Assembly: GCA_039707465.1 (NCBI GenBank)
Contig: CM077645.1
Span: forward strand, 163,980,003 to 164,044,002
Reading direction: 5' to 3'
DNA from: Rhabdophis nuchalis
Lineage: Eukaryota > Chordata > Lepidosauria > Squamata > Natricidae
DNA length: 64,000 bases
Shown here: positions 12,333 to 17,890 of the stretch, piece by piece
Layout of the letters: each line of letters begins with the position of its first letter
Numbering within the stretch: position 1 is the stretch's first letter
Made by a program: the position numbers and the translations under genes
The notes under the pieces: model-generated
The model's database searches: none
Seen by the model: the letters and a program-made list of their open reading frames with translations, nothing else
Told to the model about the DNA's origin: nothing

Positions 12333-12438
12333 ATATATATATATATATATATATATATATATATATATATATATATATATATGTGTGTGTGTGTGTGTGT
12401 GTGTGTGTGTGTGTGTGTGTGTGTGTGTGTGTGTGTGT
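12333..12438. repeat. (AT)n(GT)n compound microsatellite
   Basis: About 25 AT repeats followed by about 28 GT repeats. It abuts the first hammerhead-repeat unit at the point where the unit reads TTAGGTTTTTGAG, the same relative position as the other dinucleotide tracts in the array. Confidence 0.95.
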
Positions 12439-12469
12439 TAGGTTTTTGAGCTGATCAATAAATAAATCA

Positions 12470-12510
12470 GGGAGACTATTTTGAACTTTTTAGCTCTCAT
12501 CAGTAGCCAT
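12470..12510 (-). ncRNA. Hammerhead ribozyme remnant (copy 1)
   Basis: On the minus strand CTGATGA and GAGCT/AGTTC remain, but the second core strand reads AAAA instead of GAAA. A deletion between two TAG triplets has removed stem III, the cleavage base and part of stem I. This copy should be inactive. Confidence 0.7.
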
Positions 12511-12628
12511 ACCCTTACTGGGATTTGAACCGGGGCTATGTTACATGCTAGGCAGGAGCCTTAAACATTAGGCCAACAGGTTCTCTTTCTGTTCAGCTGG
12601 GACAGGAGGATAAGTATATACTTGTTCC

Positions 12629-12857
12629 ACAACACCCTGTTAGGCCCCAATTAAGGGAGGAAGCATACTGTTTCCTTTTCTGCCTTTTGGCTCATTTATT
12701 GATCAGCTCAAAAACCTAACACATATATATTAAAAAATTACACAACAGAACTTATGGCTTTCTGTCTAGATGGTCTCTGATGATGAGCCGAAAGGCAGAA
12801 AAGGAAACAGTATGCTTCCTCCCTTAATTGGGGCCTAACAGGGTGTTGTGGAACAGG
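12629..12857. repeat. Inverted repeat within the array
   Basis: The left arm 12629-12701 (TTGTTCCACAACACCCTGTT onward) is the near-exact reverse complement of 12784-12857. The arms are about 73 bp around an 80-bp centre. It joins a minus and a plus unit tail to tail. Confidence 0.85.
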
Positions 12858-12920
12858 TATATATATATACATATATACACATACATACATACATACATAC
12901 ATACATACATACATACATAT
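12858..12920. repeat. (AT)n/(ATAC)n microsatellite
   Basis: AT then about 12 ACAT repeats, between two array pieces at the downstream end of a unit (after GTTGTGGAACAGG). Confidence 0.9.
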
Positions 12921-13100
12921 GAGAGAATATTTTCACAGCTCCTGTTCAGGGCCCCTTTAAGGGAGGAGACTTAAACGTCATCCCTCTCTGCCCTTCGACA
13001 CAGCCCAGAGATCATCCAGACAGAGAACCAATTAGATTACTGCTGTGTGACATTTTTTAGATATGTGTTAGATTTTTAAGGGCTGATTTAATAAATAAGA

Positions 13101-13147
13101 GACCAGGATGGATCCATTTCAGGCTTATTAGCCTTCTTCAGCTGGCC
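13101..13147 (-). ncRNA. Hammerhead ribozyme, type I, intact core (copy 2)
   Basis: Minus strand in order: stem I strand GGCCAG, core CTGAAGA (fits CUGANGA), stem II AGGCT with loop AATA and AGCCT, core GAAA, palindromic stem III TGGATCCAT, cleavage base C, stem I strand CTGGTC. All invariant bases are present and all three stems can pair. The predicted cut is 3' of that C (complement of 13107). Flanking arms GTTAGATTTTTAAGGGCTG (about 13067-13085) and CAGCCCTTAAAAATCTAAC (13157-13175) are exact inverted repeats. Confidence 0.9.
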
Positions 13148-13209
13148 ATTTGCTTCTACAGCCCTTAAAAATCTAACATATATATATATTCGAATCCCAG
13201 TAAGGGTAT

Positions 13210-13256
13210 GGCTAGCTGATGAGAGCTAATAAGCTCGAAATAGATCTATCCTAGTC
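13210..13256 (+). ncRNA. Hammerhead ribozyme, type I, intact core (copy 3)
   Basis: GGCTAG, CTGATGA, stem II GAGCT-AATA-AGCTC, GAAA, stem III TAGATCTAT, C at 13250, CTAGTC. Stem I here pairs as GGCTAG with CTAGTC, a different base-pair set from copies 4 and 5 but still fully paired (one G-U). The predicted cut follows 13250. Confidence 0.9.
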
Positions 13257-13290
13257 TCCCTGACTTATTTATTGATCAGCTCAAAAACAT

Positions 13291-13342
13291 AACACACACA
13301 CACACACACACACACACACACACACACACACACACACACACA
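13291..13342. repeat. (AC)n microsatellite
   Basis: About 26 AC repeats directly after CTCAAAAACATAAC, the same position in the unit where other copies carry ACACATAT or (AT)n. Confidence 0.95.
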
Positions 13343-13506
13343 TATGTCTCCTCCCTTAATGGGACCCTAACAGGAAGTTGTGAAAACAATTATCTATACT
13401 AAATACTCCTGTCTTAGCTGATGCAATGGATAGAGCCGGTTAGGCTGTAGCGCTAGGCTTCTGCCTTGGATGAATTGCAGCCCTGGTTTGAATCCCAGTG
13501 GGGTGT

Positions 13507-15450: not shown

Positions 15451-15488
15451 TCTTAATTAATTATTATTAATCATCCCTTAAAGAAATT

Positions 15489-15624
15489 TAATATATATAT
15501 ATATATATATATATATATATATATATATATATATATATATATATATATATATATATATATATATATATATATATATATATATATATATATATATATATAT
15601 ATATATATATATATATATATATAT
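15489..15624. repeat. (AT)n microsatellite, about 68 repeats
   Basis: A long pure AT tract between the array unit (ending AAGAAATTTAA) and the left arm of the Penelope-like element. The (IY)n reading frames across it are artefacts. Confidence 0.97.
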
Positions 15625-15710
15625 TTGTTTTCTGAGGTTTTCGCGGGTGTTTGTATGTAGGTTTTTGGTTGTTCGGGTTTTCTCCCGCGTAGAATTGGAA
15701 GTATCTTCAC

Positions 15711-15744
15711 GACGTTTCGATGAAATCTCATTCATCATCTTCAG
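15711..15744 (-). ncRNA. PLE hammerhead-like motif, left arm
   Basis: Reverse complement of 17190-17223: CTGAAGA, then a short hairpin, then GAAACGTC. See the right-arm copy for the reading. Confidence 0.4.
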
Positions 15745-15924
15745 GCTGGTGCTTCGGGCTTGGTGCTTCCAGGAGCAATGTGAGATCTCAGCCGGTTCCT
15801 CTTTTTAACTGCCAGTGGGGGTGTGACTTGATTGGATGGGAGCTTGGCTGCATTCTGATTGGGTGGAGGTGTGTTCTGATTGGTAGGGGGGTTTGGCTGT
15901 GCTCTGATTGGATGGTAGTTTGGC

Positions 15925-17193
15925 TCCCTAGGACACACCATCTACCAGAAGAAAACACACACAAACCGCTATTTGCATGCACTCTCACACCACCACCCAG
16001 CACAGATCAACTCTGTAGCCAAGACACTCATCTCCAGAACAAAACGCTTAGCTGACGAACAACACCTAAAAACCGAACTACACACTCTCACCAATGTACT
16101 AACATCCAACGGATTCCAAAGAAACACGATCACTAACCTAATCCAAAAAGAAAACCCCACTAAAGTCCAAGACAGTGAACAAGAAAACGGCAAAGCCCTC
16201 CTCCCATACATAAAAGGCACCACAGACAGAATCAGCAAGATTCTCCACAAACACAACATCAAGACAGCATTCTACACAAACCGAAAAATATCCACCATCC
16301 TAGGAAACCCCAAAGAGAAAATAGAGTTAGAAAATCAAGGAGTATATGAAATCCCATGCACCACCTGCCCCACCACATACATCGGACAAACCAACAGAAG
16401 AATAAAGGCACGCATTGAAGAACACAAAAACTCAGTCAGAAAGGAGGAACCAACTTCTTCCCTGGTCCAACACTTCAAAGCCACAGGACATGATATAGAC
16501 TTTAAAAAGACCAGAACTATTGCCAAAATTGAACACTATAACAACAGAATAATCAGAGAAGCTATTGAGATAGAAAAGCGGCCACACAGCATGAATAAAC
16601 GAGATGATACCTCCCGCCTACCAGCCATTTGGAAACCTGCCCTCATTGACAAACGAGTCCCTAACACAAAGAATGATACCAGACCCACACTCACGAAAAC
16701 CACACAGGATGTCACTATCACACATCCACGCAAAAAGCAAACCCAAACCCACACCGAAGATGACCACAAATCAGAAGCCCGACCACAAACCAGAAGCCAG
16801 ACCAAAGCTGCATTATTAGCCACTTTAAACCCCTCCAATCCATACATGAAGCAAACTGATGCCCACCACGGAGTTGTAGTACGACCACAAACGCGAAGCC
16901 AAACAACAGCAATGCAGCTCACCAGGTCAAATTCCTCTGCAACTCAGACTAACACAAGCACAACCAGACCCCCACCCAAACAGAACACGCCCCCATCCAA
17001 TCAGAGCACAGCCAAACTACCATCCAATCAGAGCACAGCCAAACCCCCTACCAATCAGAACACACCTCCACCCAATCAGAATGCAGCCAAGCTCCCATCC
17101 AATCAAGTCACACCCCCACTGGCAGTTAAAAAGAGGAACCGGCTGAGATCTCACATTGCTCCTGGAAGCACCAAGCCCGAAGCACCAGCCTGA
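15925..17193 (+). pseudogene. Penelope-like polyprotein C-terminus (RT end and GIY-YIG endonuclease)
   Basis: The open frame, with the first ATG at 15973 and 406 codons, is preceded in frame by GHTIYQKKTHTNRYL, the end of a PLE reverse transcriptase. Residues about 123-138 hold GVYEIPCTTCPTTYIGQT, the GIY-YIG core with the Cys pair (C129, C132) typical of PLE nucleases. RIEEH (147-151) supplies the catalytic Arg and conserved His region. IIREAIEIEK near 193-202 gives the conserved Glu region. The nuclease nicks target DNA for insertion. Residues about 220-406 are Thr/Pro/Asn/Gln-rich with short repeats (PPNQN, SNQ) and run into the terminal repeat. The frame is open, but 5' truncation removes nearly all of the RT, so it cannot move on its own. 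Confidence 0.85.
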
Positions 17194-17223
17194 AGATGAT
17201 GAATGAGATTTCATCGAAACGTC
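17190..17223 (+). ncRNA. PLE hammerhead-like motif, right arm
   Basis: CTGAAGA (17190-17196), one extra T, a hairpin GATGAA with TTCATC, then GAAACGTC (17216-17223) in which ACGT is a tiny self-complementary stem III and C the cleavage base. PLE terminal repeats are known to carry minimal hammerheads with GAAACGUC. The extra T before stem II and the poor stem I make this copy uncertain. Confidence 0.45.
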
Positions 17224-17274
17224 GTGAAGATATTTCCAATTCTACGCGGGAGAAAACCCGAACAACCAAAGACC

Positions 17275-17391
17275 TACATATATATATATATATATATATA
17301 TATATATATATATATATATATATATATATATATATATATATATATATATATATATATATATATATATATATATATATATATATATATATAT
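17275..17391. repeat. (AT)n microsatellite, about 58 repeats
   Basis: Pure AT tract directly after the PLE right arm (ending GACCTACATA). Confidence 0.97.
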
Positions 17392-17487
17392 GCTTTCGTA
17401 GATTTTCACGGGTGTAGGTATGCTGGCATTGCTTGCTTCGGGTATTTCCCTTATACACGGGAAAATACCCGAAGCAAGCAATGTCAG
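17392..17487. repeat. PLE-terminus-like hairpin
   Basis: TTTTCACGGGTGTAGGTATG resembles the extra segment of the PLE left arm. It is followed by a hairpin: ATTGCTTGCTTCGGGTATTT near 17428-17447 and its complement AATACCCGAAGCAAGCAAT near 17464-17482. It is probably a remnant of the ends of a second PLE family. A (GT)n tract follows at 17487-17514. Confidence 0.5.
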
Positions 17488-17514
17488 TGTGTGTGTGTGT
17501 GTGTGTGTGTGTGT
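17488..17514. repeat. (GT)n microsatellite
   Basis: About 13 GT repeats leading into TTAGTTTTATTAGCTGATCAAT, the reverse complement of the array phrase around ATTGATCAGCT. Confidence 0.95.
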
Positions 17515-17890
17515 TAGTTTTATTAGCTGATCAATAAATACTTAATATTTAATCAATAAATAAGACATACAGTATGTCTCCTCCCTTAATTGGGGCCTAA
17601 TAATAACAGGTTGTTGTGAAACAATTACCTATACACACACACACACACGTACATATACATACATACATATACACATATACATACATATTACAGCATTCTA
17701 GGCAGTTTTTGCAACAAACTGTGTTTGTGTTAAATTTATGTTTGACCAACAAAGAAATAAAGGAAGACTAGTATATGGCTAGCCAGGGTTCGAAACTCAG
17801 AAGGGTATGACTACCTGATGAGAGATACATAGCTTGAAATAGATCTATACTAGTTTTTTTGTTGGTAAAACATAAATTCAACTTTTTCAA
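17515..17890. repeat. Hammerhead-repeat array, part 3 (fragments)
   Basis: 17515-17560 is a minus-oriented fragment (GCTGATCAATAAAT). 17568-17630 is a plus-oriented unit end (CAGTATGTCTCCTCCCTTAA, then GTTGTGAAACAATTA). (AC)n and (ATAC)n tracts fill 17632-17690. 17728-17885 holds a divergent hammerhead, flanked by GTTAAATTTATGTTTGACCA and its near complement (GGTAAAACATAAATTCAAC). Confidence 0.75.
17809..17855 (+). ncRNA. Divergent hammerhead ribozyme (copy 10)
   Basis: CTGATGA (17815-17821), stem II GAGAT-ACAT-AGCTT with one mismatch and one G-U, GAAA (17836-17839), stem III TAGATCTAT, cleavage base A at 17849 (A is allowed), then CTAGTT facing GACTAC. Stem I pairs except for a C-C at its first position. 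A box-B-like GGTTCGAAACTC lies upstream at about 17788. Confidence 0.75.

Follow-up and report, generated by a model that had tools for sequence, protein, structure and literature searches.

A 64-kb stretch of DNA (hereafter the window) harbors a family of non-coding repeats that carry type I hammerhead ribozymes, and this family is probably a retrozyme, i.e. a non-autonomous retroelement, copied via twin-primed reverse transcription of hammerhead-processed RNA by a Penelope-like element (PLE). We put the probability of this reading at roughly 0.64. Hammerheads, covariation in their stems, repeat units, arms of two turns, inverted pairs, recurrent ends and co-resident PLE pieces are observed at the sequence level; from these traits we infer transcription, cleavage, circles and PLE enzymes as the machinery.

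A covariance model built from nine of the hammerheads and run with default filters on the whole window located ten copies in the interval 12.46-17.87 kb. It recovers its nine source copies and a fragment at 14712-14767 with E-values up to 7.7e-4, and no further credible hammerhead in the window, the eleventh and last match having E = 5.7. Six of the ten copies possess an intact core and stems of the canonical type I: 13141 (13101..13147, minus strand, core CUGAAGA, 47 nt), 13216 (13210..13256, plus, stem I GGCUAG/CUAGUC), 13513 (13507..13553, plus), 13858 (13852..13898, plus, predicted cut after 13892) and, in family 2, 14604 (14564..14610, minus, core CUGACGA) and 15410 (15404..15450, plus, predicted cut after 15444). 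The core of copy 15064 (15058..15104, plus) is changed from A6 to G, copy 17815 keeps the core letters with mismatched stems, copy 12505 on the minus strand is decayed, and the fragment 14735 (14732..14767, plus), detected by the covariance model, is the 3′ portion of a hammerhead where arms F and G join. A structural descriptor, drawn up after reading the sequence and scanned on both strands, matches the window six times exactly and seven times with one core mismatch permitted, compared with one and seven matches, respectively, on both strands of 40 pooled dinucleotide-shuffled windows. Likewise, an IUPAC hammerhead motif occurs six times versus 0.00 expected (100 shuffles), and the hammerhead pattern has no match in viral contigs. 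The preliminary description of ten hammerheads in both orientations, six with an intact core and 47 nt long when complete, is confirmed. Of the covariance-model check that it proposed, the ten copies come from the self-built model, and the Rfam search at the gathering threshold yields zero matches.

The hammerhead stems show standard pairs in 97.9% of 97 pair cells. In the small sample of seven distinct, related hammerhead sequences, 5 of 15 pairs are changed on both sides, which 7 of 500 shuffles equal, and compensated cells number 10, a count that none of 500 shuffles attains (average 3.5). When partner columns are slid by 1-3, at most two pairs are changed on both sides. The number of further pair types (nine) is not above chance, as 487 of 500 shuffles reach it. 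Judging from these alignments, pairing in the stems is maintained by compensatory changes. Stem III is a 10-nt palindrome, and the predicted minimum free energy dimer is an exact double hammerhead for all six intact 47-mers (four distinct sequences); a null preserving the palindrome gives this dimer in 0 of 1000 cases. Added flanks destroy the dimer fold at 15 nt (13513, 13858) or at 6 nt (15410, 14604), and it stays exact with flanks of up to 20 nt (13216) or 30 nt (13141). The best reading is a type I hammerhead that, by its predicted fold, would perform best as a dimer. A second conserved hairpin in the repeat body was discarded: its 25 cells are all paired and include a single compensatory change, yet 169 of 500 shuffles match this.

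The repeat units fall into two subfamilies of 345 nt (family 1) and 346 nt (family 2), as the estimate of roughly 345 bp per hammerhead-carrying unit had anticipated; the two units agree in 223 of 369 aligned columns. They have a GC content of 0.406-0.425, and there is no open reading frame of 120 amino acids or more from 12.4 to 15.5 kb. In length and GC content the units match what is expected of a metazoan non-LTR retrozyme, whose tandem units measure roughly 150-450 bp at a GC content below 50%; the class is further defined by the absence of coding region, LTR, PBS and PPT, target-site duplications of more than 4 bp when present, and self-cleaved linear and circular monomers. The direct repeats detected are these units and microsatellites. 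Two weak antisense BLAST matches of the units, located at 57.3 and 58.5 kb, resemble AT-rich or LINE sequence and were set aside.

The head of the units had been described as tRNA-like with A and B boxes. A B box is indeed clear in some heads, e.g. GTTCGAATC in the family-1 head at 13751..13850 on the plus strand, but the A-box-like region departs from the consensus, and a strict scan for both boxes finds none in the repeat region. Rfam tRNA models and ARAGORN give zero matches to the heads; a SINE control likewise lacks an Rfam tRNA match. Comparison with the two tRNA SINEs of the window shows a weak similarity, the number of equally high shuffles out of 300 being 1 and 0 for head U1b, 3 and 11 for U2, 1 and 6 for A, and 18 and 12 for U1a. 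Taken together, the heads weakly suggest a tRNA origin. That the sense strand lacks TTTT was considered as a Pol III signature but has no significance in either dinucleotide (P 0.55-0.60) or mononucleotide (P 0.19-0.33) shuffles. The B-box-like motif in several heads, the weak SINE similarity and a CR1-type reading frame in the window would suit a tRNA-headed SINE moved by a LINE (CR1 or similar), with the hammerhead as a passenger and the inverted or tandem forms arising through L1-style twin priming and satellite-like amplification. We consider this scenario improbable, since strict A and B boxes are absent and the units have no sense-strand match to the LINE copies of the window, the only matches being two antisense, AT-rich ones; the arrangement of the inserts bears on it further, as set out below.

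Instead of a simple tandem array, the locus shows a chain in which microsatellites link nine inserts (beads). Seven of them are head-to-head inverted pairs with the RNA-sense 3′ ends pointing outward, and two of these seven are PLE pieces. The earlier label of an array is misleading, because most copies sit in separate, microsatellite-linked and mostly inverted-pair inserts; tandem units occur only in inserts E and G, the others being single, partial or inverted. The retrozyme arms end at two recurrent sites. E1 is AC-rich and lies about 41-50 nt 3′ of where the ribozyme cuts, and E2 lies about 185-200 nt 3′ of the cut. Bead 1 (12439..12864) pairs arm A (12439-12695, minus), running to E1 and then (CA)n, with arm B (12694-12864, plus), running to E2 and then an AT/ATAC repeat, and contains the decayed hammerhead near 12505. 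Bead 2 (12922..13178) pairs arm C (minus), which ends at E2 and holds the intact hammerhead 13141, with the short arm C′ (about 13150-13172, plus; limits by eye), which ends at E1. Two inserts have a single orientation: bead 3 (D, 13189..13291, plus), a partial copy from the B box to E1 followed by (AC)n, and bead 4 (E, 13343..14092, plus), in which the 345-nt unit of family 1 runs through 2.17 turns up to E2 and is followed by (TATC)n. Bead 5 (14160..14300) consists of arm I (minus, E2), interrupted by a roughly 70-nt insert resembling a LINE 3′ end, and the short arm J (plus, E1; limits by eye). In bead 6 (14380..15490), arm F (14380-14734, minus) makes one 346-nt turn to E2, and arm G (14732-15490, plus) about 2.2 turns to E1. 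Bead 9 (17505..17632; junction by eye) joins arm K (minus, E1) to arm K′ (plus, E2), each arm having a tail of sense (AC)n. Outside the chain, an old copy L with decayed stems (17798..17864, plus) lies in a foldback at about 17715-17885 and has an E1 end on both sides. Pairing C and D as mates was dismissed, as they side with different families, C with family 2 and D with family 1.

In all five inverted retrozyme pairs the two mates end at different sites, which, together with the recurrence of just two ends, is at odds with the SINE/LINE scenario. Mate identity could be measured in the three of five retrozyme pairs that have overlapping arms: arms A and B are 97.5% identical (81 columns) versus 74-85% to E, arms C and C′ 95.8% (24 columns), and arms F and G 99.7%. 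The comparisons within bead 6 give 1 difference in 355, 0 in 213 and 2 in 211 positions, so that by sequence this bead is a very young, recent insertion. Every insert of the chain has a microsatellite on both flanks, which masks target-site duplications. It is conceivable that palindrome formation, gene conversion and recombination at microsatellites reshaped an old satellite array, leaving the hammerheads as relics with no recent retrotransposition: gene conversion could explain the near-identity of F and G, microsatellites favor rearrangement, and the copies 15064, 12505 and 17815 are decayed. Yet the stems are kept by compensatory changes between two diverged subfamilies, the inserts are separate with recurrent ends, and their inverted geometry is common to PLE pieces, so we judge this history very unlikely.

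The PLE piece of bead 7 (15625..17277) is itself an inverted pair with (AT)n on both sides, and its arms (15654-15893 and 17041-17280) measure 240 nt each and are 99% complementary. It contains the C-terminal part of a PLE open frame (15973..17193, plus) with a weak match to the GIY-YIG endonuclease. By analogy with the anole element, the motif CTGAAGA...GAAACGTC (17190..17223, plus) is a putative minimal PLE hammerhead; a second copy of the motif lies on the minus strand near 15744. The best-scoring relative of this PLE is a snake sequence with an 86% match. The CR1-type LINE frame, too, has its highest identity across most of its length with a snake sequence (61%), among the best 120 of 223 relatives. 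These two relatives indirectly support a squamate host. Bead 8 (17392..17486) is a small foldback with offset ends and arms identical in 26 of 28 positions. It resembles the PLE end of bead 7 with an alignment score of 52, which none of 1000 shuffles reaches, and repeats the inverted geometry of that PLE piece. PLE pieces of equal geometry in the same chain are a further point against a SINE moved by a LINE. In favor of the latter, the retrozyme has no detectable sequence in common with the PLE start region: E1 regions compared with the end of bead 7 show no similarity beyond chance in three comparisons (shuffles with at least an equal score: 659, 818 and 908 of 1000). The carrier could be another PLE family. 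Measured from its own hammerhead-like cut, the two ends of bead 7 fall at about +56 and +86 nt on the element, a separation of about 30 nt, compared with about 150 nt between E1 and E2.

The inverted pairs, the likeness of mates and the PLE pieces of equal geometry fit twin-primed PLE reverse transcription. In the retrozyme model, the repeats would be transcribed, perhaps from the internal tRNA-like head, and hammerheads in one multimeric transcript, or in two transcripts, would pair via the palindromic stem III and, as dimers, cleave one another. Ligation would then probably turn the monomers into circles of about 345 nt. A PLE reverse transcriptase/endonuclease may then copy the retrozyme RNA into DNA, both cut target strands priming synthesis, each at a favored RNA site, E1 or E2. 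The two cDNAs would converge, sometimes over more than one turn of circular or multimeric RNA, and be joined head to head, with their starts fused to AT- or AC-type microsatellites. Several observations run against the PLE model, namely the lack of a shared E1/PLE start sequence, the flank-sensitive dimer fold, the single orientation of D and E, the copy L with E1 on both sides, the E1-E2 spacing of about 150 rather than 30, and the in vitro results on the anole PLE, in which start sites were alike for both strands and ribozyme cleavage was not required. An unlikely variant, though the least so among the alternatives, is that a PLE moves the non-autonomous element as linear multimeric RNA, involving no circles, while the ribozyme trims ends or is unneeded. 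According to the excerpted account of the anole PLE, the hammerhead is dispensable for in vitro insertion, unprocessed RNA is thought to be the main substrate and PLE loci are themselves tandem (PMC11167929). The 0-2 base differences between the turns of arm G and mate F would arise more easily from one circle, but a young tandem source locus would equally produce them.

If the retrozyme reading is true, amniotes, in which isolated, apparently domesticated ribozymes are reported, contain a mobile hammerhead family that is a possible source of the isolated ones. The inserts preserve a legible record, with start sites at two positions, use of both strands, arms longer than one turn and neighboring PLE pieces of equal geometry, which makes the route of reinsertion testable by counting insert ends in squamate genomes. 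A bolder proposal, which we hold tentatively and at less than even odds, is that this is a living, recently active amniote retrozyme family, PLE-carried via twin-primed rolling-circle copying of RNA circles, of the kind from which intronic hammerheads such as HH9 were domesticated.

The presence of type I hammerheads in mobile repeats of about 345 nt, akin in design to newt satellite 2, Sm-alpha and retrozymes, is borne out. According to the portions consulted, the satellite 2 retrozymes of axolotl and newt share the type I hammerhead with a short helix III and a palindromic tetraloop cap, expected activity as dimers, low-GC units of 330-350 nt, tandem copies and a genome that also houses PLEs with minimal hammerheads (PMC7229834). 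The present repeats differ in their apparent squamate host and tRNA-like head, and inverted-pair, microsatellite-chained inserts with two recurrent ends were not found in those portions. For the return of animal retrozymes into DNA, the same source regards PLEs as a strong candidate, though so far only a suspected, carrier (PMC7229834). Excerpts on the schistosome Sm-alpha/Sj-alpha repeats describe SINE-like elements of about 335 bp with a type I hammerhead, which tRNA annotation mistook for tRNA-Gln genes (PMC2770079, PMC8490949). They belong to another phylum, have a more clearly tRNA-like head and are likened here by description only. SINE-derived satellites are on record in squamates, as far as the excerpt goes (PMC10702118). 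The Anolis PLE Poseidon, in the excerpted account, likewise has two reverse-transcription start sites, an AC-rich start region downstream of the hammerhead, cutting and extension of both strands, and AT-rich targets (PMC11167929). Copying starts in an AC-rich loop that lies 111-118 nt within the ORF; counted from the ribozyme cut at 26, this is +85 to +92, and in vitro the start sites are alike for both strands. It differs from the retrozyme in being autonomous and coding, with a minimal hammerhead and start sites 30-40 nt apart. In the literature consulted, known mobile hammerhead repeats come from salamanders and invertebrates, and reptiles, birds and mammals have isolated ribozymes only. 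No squamate retrozyme is announced in the titles and abstract openings of the literature matches listed, where the anole PLE is the one lizard retrotransposon linked to a hammerhead. On this limited literature, a mobile hammerhead family in a squamate may be new for amniotes.

The best Rfam match of the locus is Hammerhead_HH9 (RF02275), which we take to be the RECK-intron ribozyme (E = 2e-6, 101-nt stretch, 30.5 bits). Five copies match it in E-value mode at 25.6-30.5 bits, below the gathering cut-off of 52; the other families among the 47 matches in this mode (micro-RNA etc.) are ascribed to chance and lie mostly on microsatellites and foldbacks. Intronic hammerheads are described for amniotes (PMC6155905). 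This conserved amniote hammerhead, HH9, shares the CAGCUGAUGAG side and the layout with our copies, but is a single intronic motif, whereas the hammerheads here reside in mobile repeats.

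When the stretch from 12.33 to 17.69 kb is read on both strands, it resolves into nine inserts, seven of retrozyme and two of Penelope-like element (PLE) sequence, linked by eight microsatellites. Seven of the linkers appear in the tandem-repeat table; the eighth is a short AT run between inserts 2 and 3. Seven inserts (five of the seven retrozyme and both PLE inserts) are head-to-head inverted pairs with their RNA-sense 3′ ends outward, and inserts D and E have a single orientation. Two recurrent ends, E1 and E2, lie 3′ of the predicted ribozyme cut, and each of the five inverted retrozyme pairs has one arm stopping at E1 and its mate at E2. 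E1 lies about 41–50 nt from the cut within an AC-rich stretch (+46 in arm G; +41 or later in D, whose end is ambiguous because of the AC run), and E2 lies at 185–200 nt (C 185, F 190, E 200). Three of these five pairs allowed a comparison of mates, which are identical at 97.5% (A/B, 81 columns), 95.8% (C/C′, 24) and 99.7% (F/G, 355); I/J and K/K′ barely overlap, and where the short arms C′, J and K begin and end was judged by eye. Arm I includes, at 14199–14270, a short LINE-3′-end-like piece with a TAA-repeat tail, apparently flanked (by eye) by the duplication CAATTAA. Outside the chain, an older copy at about 17715–17885 folds back on itself, and E1 marks each of its two ends. Its minus arm (17715–17770) starts, by eye, upstream of the predicted ribozyme cut by about 5 nt, which could reflect run-off at a cleaved RNA end, though the agreement is not exact.

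The preliminary description had counted ten hammerhead copies between 12.4 and 17.9 kb, six with an intact core, and both counts hold. A covariance model trained on nine of the ten recovered its training copies and a fragment at 14712–14767, the sole additional match having E = 5.7. A descriptor requiring the core and all three stems matched six times in the window versus once in 40 shuffled windows, and an IUPAC motif six times against an expectation of 0.00. N7 is the sole variable core position among the six intact copies. At its cut-off Rfam reported nothing for the window hammerheads; five copies matched Hammerhead_HH9 below it (25.6–30.5 bits versus 52). Covariation was scored on the hammerhead structure in an alignment of nine copies, seven of them distinct, in which 97.9% of 97 pairing cells pair. 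Both-sided changes occur at 5 of 15 pairs, a count reached by 7 of 500 shuffles, and are present in all three stems; with partners slid by 1–3 columns as a control, at most two pairs show them. Compensated cells number 10 versus 3.5 in shuffles (0 of 500 as high), and further pair types, nine in this alignment, are not above shuffles. The covariation suggests RNA-level selection on the hammerhead structure, although the shuffles overstate certainty somewhat, since only seven related sequences contribute and they also supplied the structure.

Stem III, previously described as palindromic, is a 10-nt palindrome, predicted by energy to form a stable duplex without a stable monomer hairpin. When four intact 47-mers were folded as dimers without constraints, the result was exactly the predicted double hammerhead, at −31 to −43 kcal/mol, while their monomers are predicted to fold at −11 to −14 kcal/mol, the MFE structure not being the hammerhead form. 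All six intact copies, comprising the same four distinct sequences, are predicted to form this dimer; it is absent from the predictions for the A6G mutant at 15064 and the decayed copy at 17815, and 0 of 1000 palindrome-keeping shuffles folded this way in silico. The exact predicted fold persists with flanks of up to 10 nt (13513, 13858), 20 nt (13216) or 30 nt (13141, minus strand), and only to 3 nt in 15410 and 14604 (minus strand). Efficient cleavage by amphibian retrozyme hammerheads is reported to require dimers (PMC7229834).

The repeat units, put at roughly 345 bp in the preliminary description, measure 345 nt in family 1 and 346 nt in family 2 (GC 0.41–0.43), and over the whole unit just 223 of 369 aligned columns are identical between the families. 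Insert E spans 2.17 turns of the unit and arm G about 2.2. Between the two turns compared in E there are 11 substitutions and a 12-nt indel, and the family 2 copies F, G1, G2 and G3 differ by 0–2 bases over 211–355 nt. This near-identity points to recent insertion of family 2, unless gene conversion has kept the copies uniform. A body hairpin, CUCUGUC...GGCAGAG (13632–13680 and equivalents), is conserved in the five copies compared, among which its covariation is not significant. The proposed tRNA-like head is weakly supported: several heads carry a B-box-like motif, and the A box is off consensus. GTTCRAATC is present in the U1b, family 2 and A heads and deviates by one base in U1a and in the older copy. 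A strict scan for paired A and B boxes found none in the retrozyme region versus eight pairings in the rest of the window. The heads resemble those of two nearby tRNA SINEs only marginally: in eight comparisons, 0 to 18 of 300 shuffles scored as high. The Rfam tRNA model matched neither of two heads tried, nor a SINE control. The A and B boxes of the tRNA-type SINEs at 2534–2600 and 34051–34117 are good, and those of the retrozyme heads are clearly inferior to them.

Open frames in the window include vertebrate-type LINEs. An uninterrupted CR1-type frame (36525–39392, 955 aa) has endonuclease and reverse transcriptase domains; among 120 of its 223 relatives listed, the top-scoring match is a bird (43%), and others are Erythrolamprus (61% over 79%), Anolis (56%) and Podarcis (55%). 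Two further LINE reverse-transcriptase copies lie at 9216–11748, split over two frames, and 46676–47968. Within the larger PLE insert (15625–17277), a frame at 15973–17193 matches GIY-YIG weakly (E = 0.0028, below Pfam's cut-off). The best-scoring of its 62 relatives is from the snake Ahaetulla prasina (86% over half of the query); others include two Phrynocephalus and one Vipera, and the remainder are mostly insects or unnamed. Relatives of this frame and of the CR1-type frame make a squamate host likely. This PLE contains CTGAAGA...GAAACGTC, which by likeness to an anole element we read as a putative minimal hammerhead. The PLE piece ends about 56 and 86 nt 3′ of the putative cut, with (AT)n beside both ends. 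The small foldback at 17392–17486 aligns to the PLE end (score 52, 0 of 1000 shuffles as high) and shows the same offset and inverted geometry.

The chain is most simply explained by twin priming, with PLE machinery as the putative enzyme and a circular or multimeric retrozyme RNA as the putative template. Either cut target strand would prime at one of two sites on this RNA, and the two converging cDNAs would then be joined. The E1–E2 spacing of about 150 nt, however, counts against PLE-type twin priming, and similarity of the E1 regions to the window PLE end is not beyond chance; what ties the retrozyme to PLEs is therefore geometry, position and company, and no common sequence. The microsatellites could be either target DNA or tails added as synthesis began. 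In arms K and K′ (17505–17632) alike, (AC)n runs in the sense direction. A single AC-repeat target could not yield this arrangement on the two flanks at once, and one of the two repeats therefore looks element-made; this suggests microsatellites seeded by the element, with the caveat that K's AC repeat is common to the end of the small PLE-like foldback.

A 2020 retrozyme paper places vertebrate cases in amphibians and describes human and mammalian hammerheads as isolated (PMC7229834); a 2017 review adds the coelacanth and calls amniote hammerheads domesticated. No title or abstract opening among the literature matches listed announces a squamate retrozyme. For the anole PLE Poseidon, purified enzyme is reported to cut and extend both strands and to prefer AT-rich DNA (PMC11167929). 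Its synthesis starts in an AC-rich loop, 111–118 nt into the ORF, and the ribozyme cuts at 26 (PMC11167929), which puts the start at +85 to +92 from the cut. The end of the window PLE at +86 falls inside this interval, and the 30-nt offset between its ends agrees with the published 30–40-nt tail (PMC11167929).
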